Shown: in pieces, positions 7,719-64,000 of the stretch
Numbering within the stretch: the stretch's first letter is position 1
Layout: the number at the start of each line of letters is the position of its first letter
Source of the DNA: Anaeromyxobacter dehalogenans 2CP-1
GTDB taxonomy: Bacteria > Myxococcota > Myxococcia > Myxococcales > Anaeromyxobacteraceae
Length of the DNA stretch: 64,000 nucleotides
Assembly: GCF_000022145.1 (NCBI RefSeq)
Contig: NC_011891.1
Location: forward strand, 3,454,501-3,518,500
Direction: 5' to 3'
Notes under the pieces: model-generated
What the model was told of the DNA's origin: nothing
Database searches by the model: none
The model's input: only the letters and a program-made list of their open reading frames with translations
Program-made: the position numbers and the translations under genes

Positions 7719-9819
7719 GCCGGACCTCTCCATCGGGACCTGGGTGTCGCTCGGGTTCGCGATCGCCGGCGCGCTCCTGGCCGGCGTCGTGGTGCTGGCG
7801 GTCACGCTCCAGGGGCGGATCGCGGCCAGCGCCGACGCGCAGCTCGAGGTCATCGGCCCGCGCGCGGCCGCGGCGGCGTCGCTCGAGAGCGCGGTGCTGC
7901 ACCTCAGCCTGACCGCGCGCGCGTACGCGCTCGCGCCCGAGCCCGCGCGGATGGACGCGCTGCAGGCGGCGCTGCGCCGGCTGGAGGGGGCGGCGGCGCG
8001 CTTCGCGGCGGTGCCGAAGCAGGGCGAGGGGACGGCCCTGGCGGACCGGATCCTGGCGGCGGTCCCGCCGTTCGAGAAGGCGGCGGTCGCCCTCGGCACG
8101 GTCGTGGCGACCGGCGGCGACGACGCCGCGATCCGCGCGCGCGAGGCGACCCTGCCGCCGATGCGCGAGGAGCTGCTGGAGCTGCTCCGGGGCTTCTCCG
8201 CGATCCAGCAGCGGCACGACGCGGGCGCGAGCCACACCATCCTCGCGTACCAGCGCGACACCGTCCGCACCCTGGTGCTCGCCTTCGCCGCCGTGGCCCT
8301 GCTCCTGGCGGTGACCGCCTGGGTGGTCGTCACGGAGGTGCGCCGCCCGGCGAAGCGGCTGGTGGACGCGGCCCGGCGGCTCGCCGCGGGCGACTACTCG
8401 GCCGTGGCGGGCCTGGAGGCACGGACCGCGGCCAGGGGGCCGCGCAGCGAGCTGGCCGAGCTGGCGCGGGCGTTCGCGGCGATGGCGGCGGAGCTGCGCG
8501 ATCGCGAGGAGCGGCTCGCCGCGCAGAACGAGGAGCTCCAGGCCCAGAACGAGGAGCTCCAGTCGAAGGAGGAGGAGCTCCACGGCCAGAACGAGGAGCT
8601 CCAGGTCCAGCAGGAGGAGCTGCAGGCCCAGAACGAGGAGCTCCAGTCGCAGGGCGAGGCGCTCCGGGCCAGCGACGCGCGCCTCACGCAGCTCGTGGAG
8701 GCGCTGTCGCAGGCGGACCGCCGCAAGAACGAGTTCCTGGCGGTGCTGTCGCACGAGCTGCGCAACCCGCTGGCGCCGGTGCTGAACGCGCTCACCGTCC
8801 TCGATCGCGGCGACCCCTCGGGCGAGCAGGGCCGGCACGCGCGCCAGGTCATCGCGCGCCAGGTGGCGCACCTGGCCCGGCTGGTGGACGACCTGCTCGA
8901 CGTCGCCCGCATCACGCAGGGGAAGATCCAGCTCCGCCGGACGCACCTGGAGCTGGGGACGGCGGTGCGGCAGGCCGCCGAGGACCTGGGCTCGCTGCTC
9001 GAGGCGCGCGGCCTCCGGCTGGCGCTCGACGTGCCCGAGCGCGAGCTGTGGGTCCACGCCGACGCGGCGCGCATCGCGCAGGTCGTGGGCAACCTGGTGC
9101 AGAACGCGGCCAAGTTCACCGACGGCGGCGGGACCGTGACGGTCGCCGTGGACGCCACGCCGGACGGGCGAGCCCGGATCCGGGTGCGCGACGACGGCAT
9201 CGGGATGCCACCGGAGGTGCTGGAGCGGCTGTTCCAGCCGTTCGTGCAGGCCGAGGGGACGCTGGCGCGGACCCGCGGCGGCCTGGGGCTGGGGCTCGCG
9301 CTGGTGAAGGGGCTGGTCGAGCTGCACGGCGGCACGGTCGGCGCCGCGAGCGCCGGGGCTGGGCGCGGGGCGACGTTCACGGTGGAGCTGCCGCTCGACG
9401 GCGTGCCGGTCCGCGCCGCCGACGCCGCAGCGCCACGCCCGGCCGCGCCGCGCCGGGTGCTCGTGGTCGAGGACAACCCGGACTCCGCCGAGACGCTGCG
9501 CGACCTGCTCGAGCTGGCCGGCCACCACGCCGACATCGCGCTCGACGGACGGCAGGCGCTGGAGCGCTGCCGCACGGCGCGCCCGGACGCGATCGTGTGC
9601 GACCTGGGGCTGCCCGACATGGACGGCTACGAGCTGGCGCGCACGCTGCGCGCCGACCCGGAGCTGTCGTCCGTGCTGCTCGTCGCCCTCTCCGGCTACG
9701 CCCTGCCCGACGACCTGGCCCGCTCGGCGCAGGCCGGCTTCGACGCGCACCTCGCCAAGCCGGCGCGCTTCGAGGCCATCGAGGCGCTGCTGGCGGGGGC
9801 GCACCGGCAGCGCGGCTGA
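7711..9819 (+). CDS. Membrane hybrid histidine kinase with heptad-repeat coiled coil
   Basis: A 702-residue hybrid kinase. Order: cytoplasmic start, TM1 (about 12-32), a four-helix-like periplasmic sensor, TM2 (about 188-208), HAMP (about 209-265), seven perfect heptads of the AQNEELQ type (271-319), then HisKA with His348 in LSHELRNPL. An HATPase domain follows (N box NLVQNAAKF, G boxes DDGIGMP and GGLGLGLAL), and a C-terminal receiver with Asp631 in CDLGLPDMDG. It overlaps the CheR-type gene by 8 bases, suggesting a joint complex. The input signal is unknown. The phosphoryl group should move from His348 to Asp631, and output would need an Hpt or another partner outside this gene. Confidence 0.9.
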   Translation: MRRPDLSIGTWVSLGFAIAGALLAGVVVLAVTLQGRIAASADAQLEVIGPRAAAAASLESAVLHLSLTARAYALAPEPARMDALQAALRRLEGAAARFAAVPKQGEGTALADRILAAVPPFEKAAVALGTVVATGGDDAAIRAREATLPPMREELLELLRGFSAIQQRHDAGASHTILAYQRDTVRTLVLAFAAVALLLAVTAWVVVTEVRRPAKRLVDAARRLAAGDYSAVAGLEARTAARGPRSELAELARAFAAMAAELRDREERLAAQNEELQAQNEELQSKEEELHGQNEELQVQQEELQAQNEELQSQGEALRASDARLTQLVEALSQADRRKNEFLAVLSHELRNPLAPVLNALTVLDRGDPSGEQGRHARQVIARQVAHLARLVDDLLDVARITQGKIQLRRTHLELGTAVRQAAEDLGSLLEARGLRLALDVPERELWVHADAARIAQVVGNLVQNAAKFTDGGGTVTVAVDATPDGRARIRVRDDGIGMPPEVLERLFQPFVQAEGTLARTRGGLGLGLALVKGLVELHGGTVGAASAGAGRGATFTVELPLDGVPVRAADAAAPRPAAPRRVLVVEDNPDSAETLRDLLELAGHHADIALDGRQALERCRTARPDAIVCDLGLPDMDGYELARTLRADPELSSVLLVALSGYALPDDLARSAQAGFDAHLAKPARFEAIEALLAGAHRQRG
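8521..8667 (+). repeat. 21-bp in-frame tandem repeat encoding seven heptads
   Basis: Seven consecutive 21-bp units inside the kinase gene. Exact 18-base words start at 8524 and 8545 and recur in later units with a few changes. Each unit encodes one Q-N-E-E-L-Q-like heptad, giving a straight parallel coiled coil between HAMP and the kinase core. Confidence 0.9.
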
Positions 9820-55237: not shown

Positions 55238-55401
55238 CGGAAGGTTAACCGGCCTCGGGCCGCCGCGGGGGCGCCGCGGCAACGGGACGCCCCCACGGCC
55301 GCGGCGGACCGATCCCGGGCCCTCGTTTGCGCCCCCCGAGCGCCGGGCGCTATCGTCGCGCTCCCGCCGCCCGCCGCGGCGGCCCGGAGGACCGGAACGC
55401 G

Positions 55402-57084
55402 ATGATGGGCCGCCTGCTGCTCACGCTGTTCGAGGCGATGGCGGTCTTCTTCGTCCTGTTCCACCTCTACTCGCGCTCGCGCGCCTTCCGGCCCGCCCGC
55501 ACCGACTGGCTGCGGCCCCGCGCCAAGCTCTCGCTGCTGCTGTTCTTCACCGGCATCGCGATCCTCGGCACCTACCTCGGCCTCCCGCTCGCGGGCGGCG
55601 CCATCGCCAACACCCGCGCCGTGGGCGCGGTCCTGGGTGGCATGCTGGGCGGGCCGGCGGTGGGCGTGGCGGTGGGCCTGCTCTCGGGCGCGCACCGCCT
55701 CACCCTGGGCGGCTTCACCGCCGGCGCTGGGGCCATCGCCACCACGCTGGAGGGGCTGATGGGCGGGCTGGTGCACCGGCGGCTCGCCTCGGCCGCGCCG
55801 GACCGGCTCATCTCCTGGAAGCTCGCCTTCGCGGTGACCGCCGCCGGCGAGGCGCTCCACATGGGCCTGCTGCTCGCCGTGTCCCGGCCGTTCCACGAGT
55901 CGGTCCGCGTGGTGGAGGGCATCGGCGTGCCCATGATCCTGGCGAACTCGGTGGGCGCGGCGCTGTTCATGACGCTGCTGCGCGACCGCCACGAGCGCTA
56001 CGATCGCCTGGCCGCCGCCACCTCCGCGAAGGCGCTCCGGATCGCCGAGCGGACGCTGGGCCCCCTCGCGCGCGGCTTCGATCGCTCGGTCGCCGGCGAG
56101 CTGGCCTCCATCATCCAGGAGGAGACCGGGGTGGGCGCGGTGGCCATCACCGACACCGAGACGGTGCTCGCGTTCGTGGGGCGCGGGTCCGACCACCACC
56201 GGCCCGGCCTGCCCATCGCCTCGCCGCTGACCCGCGGCGCCATCGAGCGGCACGAGGTGGTGTTCGCGGACGGCGAGCACGAGCACTACCGCTGCGCGGT
56301 CTCGGCGGCCTGCCCGCTCGACTCGGCGGTGGTCATCCCGCTGGTGGTGGACGGCGCGGCCATCGGGACGGTGCAGCTCCTCGAGACCGCGCGCACCCGG
56401 TTCCGGCGGCTGAACCGGTCGCTGGGCGAGGGCATCGCCGACCTGCTCTCCGACCAGCTCCTGCGGGCCCGCTTCCACGAGCAGAAGAGCCTGCTCGTCC
56501 TCACGGAGCTGAAGCTCCTGCAGGCGCAGGTGGACCCGCACTTCCTGTTCAACGCGCTCAACACCGTGCACGCCGTCACCCGCACCGACCCGGAGCGTGC
56601 CCGCGAGCTGCTCGGCCACCTCTCCGCGCTGTTCCGCAAGAACCTGAAGCGCTCCGCCCCGCTCTCCACGCTGGAGGAGGAGCTGGAGCACGCCGGCGCC
56701 TACCTGGAGATCGAGAAGGCCCGCTTCGGCGACCGCCTGGCGGTCCTCACCGAGGTGGACCCGGCGCTGCTGCGGCTGCGGCTGCCCACGTTCACGCTGC
56801 AGCCGCTCATCGAGAACGCGGTGAAGCACGGCCTCGGCGCGACGCTCGGGCAGGCCACCGCCCGCATCCGCGCCTACCGCCAGGGCGCCACGGCGGTGAT
56901 CGAGATCGAGGACGACGCCGGCGCCTACGCGCCGCGGGCCGGCGCCGACGGGATGGGCATGAGCCTGGTGGACCGGCGCATCAAGAACCTGCTGGGCGCG
57001 GAGTGGGGGGTCACCGTCTCCTGCACGCCGAGCGCGCTGACGCGCGTGTCGGTGCGGGTGCCGTTCGAGGAGCGTCCCGCGTGA
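55402..57084 (+). CDS. LytS-type sensor histidine kinase
   Basis: 560 residues starting at tandem ATGs (55402, 55405). Residues about 1-205 have 5-6 hydrophobic helices of the LytS 5TM module (GIAILGTYLGLPL, NTRAVGAVLGGMLGGPAVGVAVGLLSG), followed by a GAF domain (about 235-350). The His_kinase motif is VDPHFLFNALNTVHAV with His380, and the N box LQPLIENAVKHG. LytS/BtsS-type sensors in other bacteria detect pyruvate or cell-wall state. Its position directly before the lactate oxidation genes suggests sensing of lactate or pyruvate. The stop overlaps the regulator's ATG by one base (TGATG). Confidence 0.92.
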   Translation: MMGRLLLTLFEAMAVFFVLFHLYSRSRAFRPARTDWLRPRAKLSLLLFFTGIAILGTYLGLPLAGGAIANTRAVGAVLGGMLGGPAVGVAVGLLSGAHRLTLGGFTAGAGAIATTLEGLMGGLVHRRLASAAPDRLISWKLAFAVTAAGEALHMGLLLAVSRPFHESVRVVEGIGVPMILANSVGAALFMTLLRDRHERYDRLAAATSAKALRIAERTLGPLARGFDRSVAGELASIIQEETGVGAVAITDTETVLAFVGRGSDHHRPGLPIASPLTRGAIERHEVVFADGEHEHYRCAVSAACPLDSAVVIPLVVDGAAIGTVQLLETARTRFRRLNRSLGEGIADLLSDQLLRARFHEQKSLLVLTELKLLQAQVDPHFLFNALNTVHAVTRTDPERARELLGHLSALFRKNLKRSAPLSTLEEELEHAGAYLEIEKARFGDRLAVLTEVDPALLRLRLPTFTLQPLIENAVKHGLGATLGQATARIRAYRQGATAVIEIEDDAGAYAPRAGADGMGMSLVDRRIKNLLGAEWGVTVSCTPSALTRVSVRVPFEERPA

Positions 57085-57800
57085 TGCGCGCCGTCATCGT
57101 GGACGACGAGCCCAACGCCCGGGCCGAGCTGCGCGCGCTGCTCCAGGCCACCGGCGAGGTGGAGATCGCGGCCGACTGCGGCAACGCGGTCGAGGCGCTG
57201 CAGGCCGTGCGGCGCGAGCGGCCGGACGTGCTGTTCCTCGACGTCCAGATGCCGGTGGTGGACGGGTTCGAGCTGCTCGGCATGCTCGACCCCGACGACC
57301 TGCCGGCGGTGGTGTTCGTCACGGCGCACGACGCGTTCGCGCTCCGCGCGTTCGAGGAGAGCGCCGCCGACTACCTGCTGAAGCCGGTGGCGCCCGACCG
57401 GCTCCGCCGGTCGCTGGAGCGGCTGCGCGCCCGCGCCGGCGTCGCGCGCGCCGCCCCGCCGCTCGCGCCGCCGCTCACGCGCGTGCCCTGCCTCGCCGGC
57501 CGCGCGGTGAAGCTGGTCCCGCTCGCGGAGATCGAGCTCGTCCGCTCCGGCCCCGCCGGCGTGCACGTGGTCACCGCGCAGGGCGAGCTGTTCACCGAGC
57601 TCACCCTGAAGGTGCTGGAGGAGCGCGGGGGGCTGCTCCGCTGTCACAAGCAGCACCTCGTGAACGCGGACCGCGTGGACGAGATCCGCCCCGGCGACGC
57701 CTCGGACCCCGGCGCGGCCGTGATCCGCACGCGCGGCGGGCACGACGTGCCGGTGAGCCGGCGCCACCTGGCGCAGGTGCGCGCGCGCCTCGGGATCTGA
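57084..57800 (+). CDS. LytTR-family response regulator
   Basis: 238 residues, ribosome site GAGGAGCG inside the end of the kinase gene. Receiver at 1-120: acidic pocket VDDEP, Asp53 in LFLDVQMPVVDG, Thr in FVTAHDAFA, Lys in YLLKPVAP. LytTR DNA-binding domain at about 135-235 (VKLVPLAEIELVRSGPAGVHV... LLRCHKQHLVNADRV... VPVSRRHLAQVRARLGI), which inserts beta-strand loops into successive major grooves. The likely target is the three-repeat array just downstream (57828-57877), in front of the lactate genes. Confidence 0.93.
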   Translation: MRAVIVDDEPNARAELRALLQATGEVEIAADCGNAVEALQAVRRERPDVLFLDVQMPVVDGFELLGMLDPDDLPAVVFVTAHDAFALRAFEESAADYLLKPVAPDRLRRSLERLRARAGVARAAPPLAPPLTRVPCLAGRAVKLVPLAEIELVRSGPAGVHVVTAQGELFTELTLKVLEERGGLLRCHKQHLVNADRVDEIRPGDASDPGAAVIRTRGGHDVPVSRRHLAQVRARLGI

Positions 57801-57827
57801 TCCGCCCCCGCCGGGCCCTCGGGACCC

Positions 57828-57877
57828 CTCCGGTCGCCTCCGCCGGGCGACCGGTCGCCGCGCGCCCGCCGCCGGTC
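57828..57877 (+). promoter_or_regulatory. Three CCGGTCGC repeats at exact 21-bp steps, likely LytTR operator
   Basis: CCGGTCGC occurs at 57828-57835, 57849-57856 and 57870-57877. LytTR regulators bind pairs of about 9-bp direct repeats separated by about 12 bp, i.e. a 21-bp period, so the geometry fits. The array is in the 132-base gap between the LytTR gene and the lactate dehydrogenase gene. Confidence 0.6.
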
Positions 57878-57932
57878 GCGGGAACGCCCGCGCCGCCCCG
57901 CGCGGACGTGGTGCGATGCGCGTCCGCCCGCC

Positions 57933-60818
57933 ATGGCCCACCGAGACGACGTGCGCGCGCTCCCCGAGCCCTACCTCCGCCTCCACGAGGCGCTGGCGCG
58001 ACACCTCCCCGGCGAGCGGCTCGTCACCGACCCGCTCCGCCGGCTCGCGCTCGGCACCGACGCGAGCTTCTATCGCCTCACCCCGCGCCTCGTGGTCGAG
58101 GTCCGGACGGTGGACGAGGTGCGCCGCGTGCTCGCCGAGGCGGCGCGCCTCGGCACGCCGGTGACGTTCCGCGCCGCGGGCACCAGCCTGTCGGGCCAGG
58201 CGGTCACCGACTCGGTGCTGGTGCGGGTCACCGGAGGCTGGCGCGCGATGCGCGTGCTGGACGGCGGCGCGCGCATCGCGCTCGAGCCCGGCGTCGTCGG
58301 CGCGGACGCGAACGCGGTGCTGGCGCCGCTGGGGCGCAAGCTCGGCCCCGACCCGGCCTCCATCGGCGCGTGCATGGTGGGGGGGATCGCCGCGAACAAC
58401 GCGTCCGGGATGTGCTGCGGCACCGCCCAGAACAGCTACCGGACCGTGGCGTCGATGCGCCTGGTGCTGGCGGACGGCACGGTGCTCGACACCGACGATC
58501 CGGCGTCTCGCGAGGCGTTCCGCGCGGCGCGCCCGGAGATCGTGGACGGGCTGCGCGTCCTCCGCGCCGAGATCGAGGCCGACCCCGCGCTGCGCCGCCG
58601 GATCATCGAGAAGTTCCGGATCAAGAACACCACCGGCTACGCGCTGAACGCGTTCGTGGACTTCGAGGACCCGCTCGACGTCCTGCTCCACCTGCTGATC
58701 GGGTCGGAGGGGACGCTCGGCTTCATCGCGGAGATCACCTACCACACCGTCCCGGAGCACGCGCACAAGGCGAGCGCGCTGGCGTTGTTCGCCGGCGTCG
58801 GCGACGCCGCGCGCGCCACCATGCTCCTGCAGGGCGGCCCGGTCGCGGCGGTCGAGCTGATGGACCGGGCCTCGCTGCGCTCGGTCGAGGCGAAGCCCGG
58901 CATGCCGCCGGAGCTGGCCGGGCTGCCCGACGGCGCGGCGGCCCTGCTCATCGAGACCCGCGCCGCCACCCCCGCCGAGCTCGGCCCGCAGGTGGAGGCG
59001 CTGCTCGCGCGCATGGCGCCGGTGCGCGCGCTCGCGCCGGTCCGCTTCACCGCGGTGAAGGCCGAGTACGAGCGGCTCTGGGACGTGCGCCGCGGGCTGT
59101 TCCCGGCGGTGGGCGCGGCCCGGCCCATCGGCACCACCGTGGTGATCGAGGACGTGGCGTTCCCCATCCGCCACCTCGCCGACGCGACCGTGGAGCTGCA
59201 GGGGCTGCTCGCGACGCACGGCTACGACGGGATCATCTTCGGCCACGCGCTCGACGGGAACCTGCACTTCGTCTTCACGCCGGACTTCGGCGCCGAGGGC
59301 GAGGTGGAGCGGTACGCGCGGTTCATGGACGACGTCTGCACCATGGTGGCGCGCAGGTACGACGGCTCGCTGAAGGGGGAGCACGGCACCGGCCGCAACG
59401 TGGCGCCGTTCGTGGAGCTGGAGTGGGGCGCGAAGGCCACCGGGCTGATGCGGCGGGTGAAGCGGCTGCTCGACCCCGGCGGCCTGCTCAACCCGGGCGT
59501 CGTGCTGAACGACGACCCGCGCGCGCACCTGCGCGCCCTGAAGGCGCTCCCGCACGCGCACCCGATCCTCGACCGCTGCATCGAGTGCGGCTTCTGCGAG
59601 CCGCGCTGCCCGTCGCGCGACCTCACCCTCACCCCGCGCCAGCGGATCGTGGCCCAGCGCGAGATCGCCCGGCTGCGCGTCACCGGCGAGGACCCGGCCG
59701 CGCTCGAGCGGCTGGAGCACGACTACGTCTACCTGGGCGAGCAGACCTGCGCGGTGGACGGCCTGTGCGCCACCGCCTGCCCGGTCGGCATCGACACCGG
59801 TGAGCACACCAAGTGGCTGCGCGCGCAGGCCCACGCCGACGGCGGCGCGGCCGCCGACCTCGCCGCCGTCCGGTTCGCGGCGGTGGCCGCCGGGGCGCGC
59901 GCCGGGCTGCGGCTCGCGTCCGCGGCGCACGCGGTGCTCGGCACCGCCGCGCTCGCCGGCCTCACCCGCGGCCTGCACCGGCTCAGCGCCGGCCGGCTGC
60001 CGGTCTGGAACGAGGCCACGCCGCGCGCCGCCCGCGCCCCGCGGCTGGACGGGACGCGCCGCGGGGGCGACCGGGTGGTGTACTTCCCGAGCTGCGTCGC
60101 GCGCACCATGGGCCCGGCCCGCGGCGACGCGGAGGGCGTGGAGGTCCACGCCGCCATGCTCTCGCTGCTCGGCAAGGCCGGCTTCGACGCGGTGTTCCCG
60201 CCCGGCTTGGAGGGGCTGTGCTGCGGGATGCCCTTCGAGTCGAAGGGCTGGCCCGCGCAGGCGGACCGCAAGGGCCGCGAGCTGGAGGCGGCGCTCCTCG
60301 AGGCGAGCGAGGGCGGCCGGCACCCGGTGGTGTTCGACACCAGCCCGTGCGTGTACCGCATGCGCAAGGCGGCCGGCGGGCGGCTCGCCATCCACGATCC
60401 GGTCGAGTTCATCCAGCGGCTCGTGCTGCCGCGCGTGTCGCTCACCCGCGTGCCCGGGCCGGTGGCGGTGCACGTGCCCTGCAGCGCGGTGAAGCTCGGG
60501 CTCGCGCCGGCGTTCCGGGCGGTGGCCGAGGCCTGCGCCGAGCAGGTGGTGATCCCGCGCGAGGTCGGCTGCTGCGGCTTCGCCGGCGACCGCGGGTTCA
60601 CCCACCCCGAGCTGAACGCCTCCGCGCTCGCGCCGCTGGCGGCGGCGCTGCCGGCCGGCTGCGCCGCGGGCTTCTCCTCCAGCCGCACCTGCGAGATCGG
60701 CCTGTCGCTGCACGCCGGCGTGCCGTACCGCCCGCTGGCCTGGCTGGTGGACCGCTGCGCGTCGCCGCGCGCCGGCCGAGACCTCGAGCCCCCCGTCCCC
60801 CGCATGCACGCACCGTGA
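57933..60818 (+). CDS. FAD/4Fe-4S D-lactate dehydrogenase (Dld-II type)
   Basis: 961 residues. The N-terminal half is a FAD-binding PCMH domain ([35 protein letters not shown]) and the FAD-oxidase C domain ending [17 protein letters not shown]. Two 4Fe-4S sites follow: [12 protein letters not shown] (from 549) and [12 protein letters not shown] (from 606). The C-terminal third carries two CCG domains ([12 protein letters not shown] and [12 protein letters not shown]) like GlpC/LutA/GlcF. It should oxidise D-lactate (or another 2-hydroxyacid such as glycolate) to the keto acid and pass electrons to quinone. The lactate permease and lut genes downstream favour lactate. The repeats at 57828 lie upstream; ATG at 57933 has a weak ribosome site. 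Confidence 0.92.
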
Positions 60819-60831
60819 AGGAGATCGCCCG

Positions 60832-62505
60832 ATGAGCTGGACCCAGATCTACACCCCCGTCGCCGGGAGCCTGATCGTCTCGGCGCTCGTCGCCGCCATC
60901 CCGGTGGTCGCGCTGCTCGGCGCGCTCGCCTTCTTCCACGTGAAGGCCCACTGGGCCGCGCTGATCGGCCTGGTGCTGGCGCTCGGCATCGCGATCGGCG
61001 TCTACGGCATGCCGGCGTCGATGGCCGGCGCGGCCGCGCTGAACGGCGCCGCGTTCGGCCTGCTGCCGATCGGCTGGATCGTGCTGAACGCGATCTTCGT
61101 CTACGACATCACCGTCCGGACCGGGAAGTTCGAGGTGGTGAAGGAGACCATCGCCGGCCTCGCCTCCGACCGGCGCATCCAGGTGCTGCTCATCGGCTTC
61201 TCCTTCGGCGCGTTCATCGAGGGCGCGGCCGGGTTCGGGACGCCGGTGGCCATCAGCGCCGCCATGCTCATCGGCCTCGGCTTCAAGCCGCTGCCGGCGG
61301 CGGGCCTGGCGCTCATCGGCAACACCGCGCCGGTCGCGTACGGCGCCCTCGGCACCCCCATCATCACGCTCGCCAAGGTGACCGGCCTGAACGAGCTCGC
61401 GCTGTCCGCCATGACCGGGCGCCAGCTCCCGCTGTTCTCGCTCATCGTGCCGTTCTGGCTCGTGTGGGCGATGTCCGGCTTCCGCGGCATGGTCGAGGTC
61501 TGGCCGGCCTGCCTGGTGGCCGGCCTGTTCTTCGCGGTCCCGCAGTTCGTGGTGTCCAACTTCTACGGCCCCTCGCTGGTGGACATCGTGGCCGCCGCGG
61601 TGTCGCTCCTCGCGATGTACCTGCTGCTGAAGGTCTGGCAGCCCCGGACCGTGTGGCGCTTCCACGACGAGCGCGACTCCGACGCGGCCCTGGCGGCCCG
61701 GAAGTCGGTCGGCGCCGCCGCCGCGCACCGGGCGCCCACCGGCGCGGAGGCGCTGGTGGCGTGGCTCCCCTGGATCATCCTCTCGGTGTTCGTGTTCGCG
61801 TGGGGCCTGCCGTCGGTGAAGGCCTGGATGAACGGCATCTTCAACCCGACCTGGGAGGTGCCGTTCCTGCACAACCTGGTGCACAAGGCGCCGCCGGTGT
61901 CGAAGGCGCTCGCGCCCGAGGCGGCGAAGTACAGCCTGAACCTGCTCTCCGCCACCGGCACCGGCCTGCTGCTGTCCGGCGTGGTCTCCGGCCTCGTCCT
62001 GAAGCTCGGCCCGGGCGCGCTGCTCCGCACCTACCTCGGCACGCTGAAGCGGGTGCGCTTCTCGCTCGTCACCATCGCGGCCATGCTGGCGCTCGGGTTC
62101 ACCACGCGCTTCTCGGGGTCGGACTCGACCATGGGGCTCGCGTTCGCCTCCACCGGCCACCTGTTCCCGTTCTTCTCGCCCCTGCTCGGCTGGCTGGGCG
62201 TGGCGCTCACCGGGTCCGACACGTCGTCGAACGTGCTGTTCGGCAACCTGCAGGTGGTGAGCGCGCAGCAGATCGGCATGAACCCGATCCTCGCGGCGGC
62301 CTCCAACAGCTCGGGCGGCGTGATGGGCAAGATGATCGACGCGCAGAGCATCGTGGTCGCGTCGGTCGCGACCGGCCAGCACGGCCACGAGGGGATCATC
62401 CTCCGCTACGTGTTCTGGCACTCGCTCGTGCTCGCCTGCCTGGTCGGCGTGGTGGTGTTCCTCCAGGCCTACGTGTTCACCGGCATGGTCCCCATCCCGC
62501 ACTAG
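60832..62505 (+). CDS. lctP: L-lactate permease family transporter
   Basis: 557 residues with about 13 membrane helices, starting at an ATG after GAAGGAGAT, 13 bases past the dehydrogenase stop. Family hallmarks are [44 protein letters not shown] and [17 protein letters not shown]. LctP/GlcA proteins import lactate or glycolate with protons. Part of the lactate operon (dehydrogenase, permease, then lutA/lutB). Confidence 0.94.
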
Positions 62506-62572: not shown

Positions 62573-63316
62573 GTGAAGGTCGCGCTGTTCGTTCCGTGCT
62601 ACGTGGACCAGCTCCACCCGCAGGTCGCTCACGCGACGGTGCGGGTGCTGGAGCGGCTCGGCGTCGAGGTCGTGTTCCCCGAGGAGCAGACCTGCTGCGG
62701 CCAGCCCATGGCGAACGCCGGCTTCGCCGCCGACGCCGCGCCGCTCGCGCGCCACTTCCTGGAGGTGTTCGGGGGCTACGACCACGTGGTGGCGCCCTCC
62801 GGGAGCTGCGTCTCGATGGTCCGCAACCACTACGACGCGTTCCTGTCCGGCGCCCCGGGCTTCGATCGGCTGCGGCGCGGGACGTTCGAGCTGTGCGAGT
62901 TCCTCACCGACGTGCTGAAGGTGGGCGAGCTCCCGGGCCGCTACCCGCACAAGGTCGGGCTGCACCAGAGCTGCCACGGGCTGCGCGAGCTCGGCCTGGG
63001 CAGCCCGAGCGAGCGGATGGAGCCGCGGTTCAGCAAGGTCGGGCTGCTCCTCTCGCGGCTGCAGGGCATCGAGCTCGTCTCGCTCTCCCGGCCCGACGAG
63101 TGCTGCGGGTTCGGCGGCACGTTCGCGGTGGCGGAGGAGGCCGTCTCCTGTCTGATGGGGCGCGACCGGATCGCCGACCACCTGGCGGCCGGGGCGGAGG
63201 TGGTGACCGGGACCGACGTCTCCTGCCTCATGCACCTCGACGGCCTGGCGCGCCGGACGCGGCTGCCGCTCCGGTTCCGGCACGTGGCGGAGATCCTGGC
63301 GGAGGCGACCGCGTGA
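62573..63316 (+). CDS. lutA: LutA, Cys-rich subunit of the L-lactate oxidation complex
   Basis: 247 residues from a GTG at 62573, 7 bases after GGAGG. Two CCG domains: EEQTCCGQPMANAG with APSGSCVSMVRNHY, and HQSCHGLRELG with PDECCGFGGTF. LutA acts with LutB and LutC to oxidise L-lactate to pyruvate through iron-sulfur centres. The stop overlaps the start of lutB by 4 bases (GTGA). It gives the cell an L-isomer pathway next to the D-lactate enzyme. Confidence 0.94.
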   Translation: MKVALFVPCYVDQLHPQVAHATVRVLERLGVEVVFPEEQTCCGQPMANAGFAADAAPLARHFLEVFGGYDHVVAPSGSCVSMVRNHYDAFLSGAPGFDRLRRGTFELCEFLTDVLKVGELPGRYPHKVGLHQSCHGLRELGLGSPSERMEPRFSKVGLLLSRLQGIELVSLSRPDECCGFGGTFAVAEEAVSCLMGRDRIADHLAAGAEVVTGTDVSCLMHLDGLARRTRLPLRFRHVAEILAEATA

Positions 63317-64000
63317 CCGGGCACGCCGAGCGCGCCGCGCGCTTCGCGGCCGACGAGCCGCGCGCGCACTGGCACGACCAGGCGCTCTGGTTCGTGCGCC
63401 TGAAGCGCGACCGCATGGCGGCGGCGGTGCCGGAGTGGGAGGCGCTGCGCGAGCGCGCCGCGGGCGTGAAGGCGCACGCCCGGGCCCGGCTGGCCGACTA
63501 CCTGGAGCAGTTCGAGCGCGAGGCCACCCGGCGCGGCATCCGGGTGCACTGGGCCCGCGACGCCGACGAGCACAACGCGGTCGTCCACCGGATCCTCTCC
63601 GAGCGCGGCGTCACCCGGGTGGTGAAGTCGAAGTCGATGCTGACCGAGGAGTGCCACCTCAACCCCTATCTGGCGTCGCGCGGCATCGAGGTGGTGGACA
63701 CCGACCTGGGCGAGCGGATCGTCCAGCTCGCCGGCGAGCCGCCCTCGCACATCGTGCTGCCCGCCATCCACAAGAAGAAGGAGGAGATCGGCGAGCTGTT
63801 CCACCGCACCCTCGGCACGACCGCCGGCGCCTCGGATCCCACCTACCTCACCCAGGCCGCCCGCGCGCACCTGCGCGAGAAGTTCCTGGCCGCGCAGGCG
63901 GGCCTCACCGGCGTGAACTTCGCGATCGCCGAGACCGGCGGGATCGTGGTGTGCACGAACGAGGGCAACGCGGACATGGGCACGCACCTGCCCCCGCTCC
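63313..64000 (+). CDS. lutB: LutB, iron-sulfur subunit of L-lactate oxidation, cut by the window edge
   Basis: 229 complete codons are visible from a GTG at 63313 that overlaps the lutA stop. The sequence (ALWFVRLKRDRMAAAVPEWE, then KSKSMLTEECHLN and GIEVVDTDLGERIVQLAGE, then AIHKKKEEIGELF) is that of the LutB N-terminal DUF162-type domain, here ending at VVCTNEGNADMGTHLPPL. The ferredoxin-like 4Fe-4S part lies past the window. A lutC gene is expected next. Confidence 0.94.
   Translation, partial: MTGHAERAARFAADEPRAHWHDQALWFVRLKRDRMAAAVPEWEALRERAAGVKAHARARLADYLEQFEREATRRGIRVHWARDADEHNAVVHRILSERGVTRVVKSKSMLTEECHLNPYLASRGIEVVDTDLGERIVQLAGEPPSHIVLPAIHKKKEEIGELFHRTLGTTAGASDPTYLTQAARAHLREKFLAAQAGLTGVNFAIAETGGIVVCTNEGNADMGTHLPPL

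Follow-up and report, generated by a model that had tools for sequence, protein, structure and literature searches.

The window analysed here, a 64,000-nucleotide stretch of the Anaeromyxobacter dehalogenans 2CP-1 chromosome, contains a BtsS/BtsR-type two-component gene pair, three short direct repeats and a set of lactate genes, all on the forward strand (Table 1). The sensor kinase combines 5TM-5TMR_LYT, GAF-like and His_kinase domains, and its true start is likely near the ATG at 55402. The regulator joins a receiver domain (Response_reg, PF00072) to a LytTR domain (PF04397) and passes the BtsR equivalog model NF008677 (309.8 bits, cut-off 246). Downstream of the repeats the operon is ordered dld-lldP-lldE-lldF-lldG, with lldG (LutC-like, LUD domain) following lldF beyond the window (locus L090); a lactate substrate for the dld product is suggested by the neighbouring genes. 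The initial annotation had placed the repeats between a LytTR regulator and a likely lactate operon, and both flanks bear this out, the former by its NF008677 score and the latter by its lactate permease and lactate dehydrogenase genes. No close CstA homologue was found in genome G000, where the neighbour of the regulator is the lactate operon. The closest named relative among the matches is Anaeromyxobacter sp. PSR-1, and a contig scan with a single protein query returned mostly distant LytTR proteins.

Table 1. Features of the regulator and lactate gene region, in window coordinates
Feature	Coordinates	Strand	Basis
BtsS/LytS-type sensor histidine kinase	55327..57084	+	Pfam; 46% identity to E. 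coli BtsS
BtsR-type LytTR response regulator	57084..57800	+	NCBIfam NF008677; 47% identity to E. coli BtsR
Box 1, CCGGTCGC	57830..57837	+	relatives-only matrix, 7.4 bits
Box 2, CCGGTCGC	57851..57858	+	relatives-only matrix, 12.7 bits, top score in gap
Box 3, CCGGTCGC	57872..57879	+	relatives-only matrix, 9.5 bits
Putative extended -10 element, GTGGTGCGATGC	57908..57919	+	alignment on box 3
dld, first gene of operon, FAD/Fe-S fusion D-lactate dehydrogenase-like protein (Dld-II type)	57933..60818	+	
lldP, lactate permease	60832..62505	+	Lactate_perm 1e-159; TIGR00795
lldE (LutA-like), Fe-S protein with two CCG domains	62573..63316	+	
lldF start (LutB-like, LUD_dom + LutB_C), runs past window	63313..64000	+	

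The repeats lie inside a 132-bp gap that extends from the stop codon of the regulator gene to the ATG at 57933, and they form three 8-bp direct repeats separated by 13-bp intervals, within the 12-13 bp expected of such a triple. Their identity and their spacing (21 and 21 bp) agree with the initial annotation, whereas the starts given there, 57828, 57849 and 57870, are each 2 bp too low. Box 2 is embedded in a 14-bp perfect palindrome, GGCGACCGGTCGCC. Single copies of the word are frequent in the window (42 against 23 expected), and an exact pair of copies 21 bp apart occurs in the 5.03-Mb genome at this site alone (two overlapping pairs), with 15 runner-up places carrying one mismatch each; the test of random genomic phasing that had been named beforehand did not refute the array. 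When one mismatch is allowed, the array is the sole genomic match to the degenerate triple, compared with three matches for a backwards control pattern. In a look-elsewhere test, in which any identical 8-mer in three copies at an equal spacing of 9-40 bp was counted, 4 of 30 dinucleotide-shuffled versions of the window contained such a triple. The bare pattern is therefore weak evidence: taken alone, the box triple is only mildly improbable, and further evidence is needed to make the case.

DNA upstream of dld and lldP in relatives of the same family was scanned for three boxes. Among the assessable genomes that have a BtsR ortholog, nearly all carry 21-bp-spaced CCGNTCRC-like boxes before the first lactate gene, be it dld (G000, G001, G007, G009, G017, G019 and G020, with four boxes in G019) or lldP (G003, G005, G006, G021 and G023, and G013 with two boxes). 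The arrays also occur at genes that are not linked to the regulator: in G003, G005 and G006, dld is at another genomic location, with an array of its own; in G003 and G006 the array remains at lldP with other DNA between the regulator and lldP; and in G017 it precedes dld with the regulator 76 kb off. Upstream scans found no array where lldP is the second gene of the operon (G000, G001, G007, G009 and G020), nor at the distant dld of G023, G021 and G013, in which the array stands at lldP. In relatives without BtsR the arrays are mostly absent, none being found upstream of dld and lldP in G002 and G010 or upstream of dld in G011 and G018; G014 has an array before dld, and no BtsR was found in its 87%-complete draft. 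G008, G015, G016 and G022 were left out of this judgement for contig ends, a gap (an N run in G016) or incompleteness. The link between regulator and operon that had been proposed from the window is upheld by arrays at the lactate genes of relatives, even regulator-unlinked ones, and by their general absence where the regulator is missing; the repeats, whose lack of conservation in relatives had been named beforehand as refuting, are conserved. In G012 (L219 / L198), which has no BtsR ortholog, the lldP reading frame is broken up, and box-like remnants CCGGTTAG, CTCGTCAG and CCGGTAGC lie before dld at the expected -101/-80/-59.

A spacing analysis of 15 array regions gave at least 22/24 at spacing 21 in 13 of them, against 0.02 expected from shuffles, and in at most one at each of the other spacings between 9 and 44. 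The presence of an array was the criterion for selecting these regions, so the 13/15 count carries less weight than the spacing profile and the control genes; comparable control promoters carry no such arrays. As the box pattern had been learned from the same regions, they were scanned again with a motif taken from E. coli only (ACCRCTYA), and spacing 21 was again the best (17.1 versus a mean of 14.05, sd 0.61). A matrix built from 42 boxes of relatives, with the window and its near twin excluded, gives its three highest scores in the gap to the three boxes of the window. It is this conservation, as read from sequence, that makes the evidence of the box triple strong. A chance origin of the repeats in intergenic DNA of very high GC content could appeal to the abundance of CCGGTCGC and to the equally spaced triples among the shuffles, but it leaves unexplained a spacing kept at many divergent, unlinked places and absent from control promoters; the relatives lead us to reject it as scarcely credible.

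The same comparison bears on two other readings of the gap. A perfect 9-bp inverted repeat, CCGGTCGCC-N7-GGCGACCGG (57830-57854), pairs box 1 with the left half of box 2, and its RNA hairpin might end or attenuate transcription after the regulator gene. In relatives, however, the direct repeats persist without the inverted one, with complementary runs of at most 0-6 bases; shuffled versions of the gap fold equally well (z 0.80), a search for a terminator-like site found none, and the unlinked dld genes bear arrays with no upstream regulator gene to terminate. With the inverted repeat unconserved and the folding energy ordinary, we reject the hairpin or attenuator as highly improbable. The perfect palindrome at box 2 could instead serve another regulator, for example a GntR-type protein such as LldR, the lactate regulator of E. 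coli (PMC10272880). Yet most relatives keep the 21-bp direct array and not the palindrome, the presence of the array tracks that of BtsR, and a triple direct array would be an unusual shape for a GntR operator, leaving this reading very unlikely.

Genome G002 (L079), from a close relative, offers a natural comparison, in which the pair and most of the operator are lost and the lactate operon and promoter core are kept. Its sequence, with a dld about 95% identical, matches the window to 55325 and then again from 57857; it lacks 55326-57856, that is, the kinase, the regulator and boxes 1-2, and its box 3 is altered at an otherwise nearly invariant T, with the GTGGTG promoter core intact. Since the regulator and boxes 1-2 disappeared in one deletion, their co-loss is an illustration rather than independent proof.

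When the arrays are aligned on box 3, 15 of 17 regions show GTGG, GTGC or TTGC, a GTG-type element, at a distance of 28-30 bp past that box; in the window it is GTGGTG at 57908. In G019 the fourth box lies 22 bp past box 3, and the GTG element keeps its distance from box 3. We infer that this element is an extended -10 element. No recognisable match to the sigma-70 consensus was found, a common situation in DNA this rich in GC.

Taken together, the three boxes are very probably a BtsR operator from which the regulator would activate the promoter of the dld-to-lldG operon. In the proposed mechanism, the membrane kinase would sense an extracellular monocarboxylate and phosphorylate the BtsR-type regulator; phospho-BtsR would occupy the three direct repeats, which are two helical turns apart and therefore face the same side of the helix; and the bound regulator would activate a promoter with its core about 30 bp past box 3, driving genes for the uptake and oxidation of D- and L-lactate. 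Regulator binding, activation rather than repression and the identity of the ligand are all predictions from sequence. Repression from the same BtsR operator, as by CoxC at PcoxB, is unlikely: three-box LytTR operators that overlap the -35 region can repress (PMC11347149), and the promoter position here is a prediction, but if the GTG element is the -10, box 3 would lie upstream of the -35, the site of activating LytTR proteins (PMC11347149, PMC6193735), and E. coli BtsR activates btsT (PMC10653868). A degenerate-triple search of the family for further targets gave, outside the lactate genes, match numbers similar to those of the backwards control, so we claim no additional regulon members; no autoregulatory box pair was found near the start of the kinase gene.

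The closest known counterpart is E. coli BtsS/BtsR (YehU/YehT), which belongs to the same kinase and regulator families (46-47% identity) and has the same adjacent gene order. At the E. coli btsT (yjiY) promoter, the BtsR boxes ACCGCTTA (-164) and ACCACTCA (-143) are likewise 21 bp apart. The E. coli box ACCRCTYA and CCGGTCGC have a related core, CC-R-[GC]-T-Y, and differ at position 5 and, in most cases, also at position 8; the box CCGCTCAC of the relatives bridges the two. The E. coli target is a CstA-family pyruvate transporter, a trait that the NCBIfam BtsR model does not demand, whereas the predicted target here is a lactate operon with three exact boxes. Applied to the E. coli btsT upstream region, the relatives-only matrix ranked sites at -183 and -163 first, both within the YehT (BtsR) binding fragment (PMC4847170). 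A third BtsR-like box, GCCGCTCA, is present there at -184 to -177 (L070), 20 bp upstream of the -164/-143 pair, and is the highest scorer of the matrix in that region. The three-box layout may be older than the family of Anaeromyxobacter.

Other LytTR systems share parts of this architecture. LytTR proteins bind repeats 11-13 bp apart (PMC4847170), and three-repeat operators are known for the LytTR regulators RcoM-1 and CoxC, likewise consisting of three LytTR-bound 8-bp direct repeats two helical turns apart (PMC11347149); these regulators are one-component CO sensors that act on cox genes through other boxes (TTCNNGCA, TTNNNGCN), in contrast to the two-component BtsR here. The E. coli LytS/LytTR pair PyrS/PyrR (YpdA/YpdB) acts at yhjX with the same 21-bp period (10-bp repeats, 11-bp spacer; PMC4847170), but with another box sequence, another target, pyruvate sensing at higher concentration and two sites, which YpdB binds sequentially and cooperatively (PMC4847170); a third site, as here, might give the cooperative or graded control suggested in the initial annotation. 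The lactate genes match the Shewanella-type set lldP, dld-II and lldEFG in content; here a BtsS/BtsR-type pair is predicted to be in control, whereas Shewanella D-lactate oxidation is reported to be under CRP (PMC5432575).

The response of E. coli BtsS to pyruvate requires Arg72, Arg99, Cys110 and Ser113 (PMC10653868). The window kinase keeps both pocket arginines (R97 for Arg72, R124 for Arg99) and has Gly135 in place of Cys110 and Ala138 in place of Ser113, so that the essential Cys and Ser are replaced. The same pattern, both arginines with Gly at Cys110 and Ala or Ser at Ser113, is shared by the 13 orthologous kinases examined in the family, including that of the window, and by a second copy in G007; ten of the 13 are near a lactate gene, that of G016 is beside lldP, and those of G008 and G015 could not be judged. 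Kinases adjacent to CstA, in G004 and the distant G075, where CstA stands beside the BtsS/BtsR pair, keep Cys and Ser. G017 is an exception, with a Cys/Ser kinase, no CstA found and an array at dld. The BtsR tree does not place the regulators of the Cys/Ser-pocket kinases together in a single clade and gives no count of the pocket changes. The second BtsS/BtsR pair of G007 (L244 6136-8525), with its Gly/Ala pocket, has no adjacent lactate or CstA gene. G075 (L233), from another family of the phylum, has CstA downstream of its BtsS/BtsR pair, and a box array (CCGATCAC, CCGTTCGT and CCGCTCGA) lies between the two at 2260.

Lactate does not induce E. coli btsT (PMC5431176), and the authors of the BtsS work raised the possibility of lactate sensing by kinases with other residues at the Cys and Ser positions (PMC10653868, PMC5431176). 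Because the lactate-linked kinases replace Cys110 and often Ser113, and the CstA-linked ones keep Cys and Ser, natural lactate sensing by the former is plausible. We tentatively consider it possible that in the relatives of Anaeromyxobacter a BtsS pyruvate receptor was re-tuned to lactate, its regulon being switched from CstA to the lactate genes with a three-box readout. Pyruvate may instead be the ligand, since lactate oxidation yields it and LldP-type permeases of S. aureus carry it (PMC12632267). The variation makes the ligand specificity of BtsS-type kinases testable on natural variants, lactate-adjacent versus CstA-adjacent. Within incomplete literature coverage, no report tying a BtsS/BtsR-type pair to the lactate genes of Anaeromyxobacter was found; the locus would provide a defined predicted operator and a small regulon, tied to lactate catabolism, for a LytS/LytTR pair outside the gamma-proteobacteria, which are well studied.

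Two minor observations were made along the way. A class-level search from L137, a record titled Comamonas sp. KCTC 72670, returned the same Anaeromyxobacter relatives with the same sizes and scores, and the record looks mislabelled or mis-binned. Elsewhere in the window, at 8530-8650, about six copies of GAGGAGCT recur at 21-bp steps, probably as a seven-residue repeat within coding sequence.
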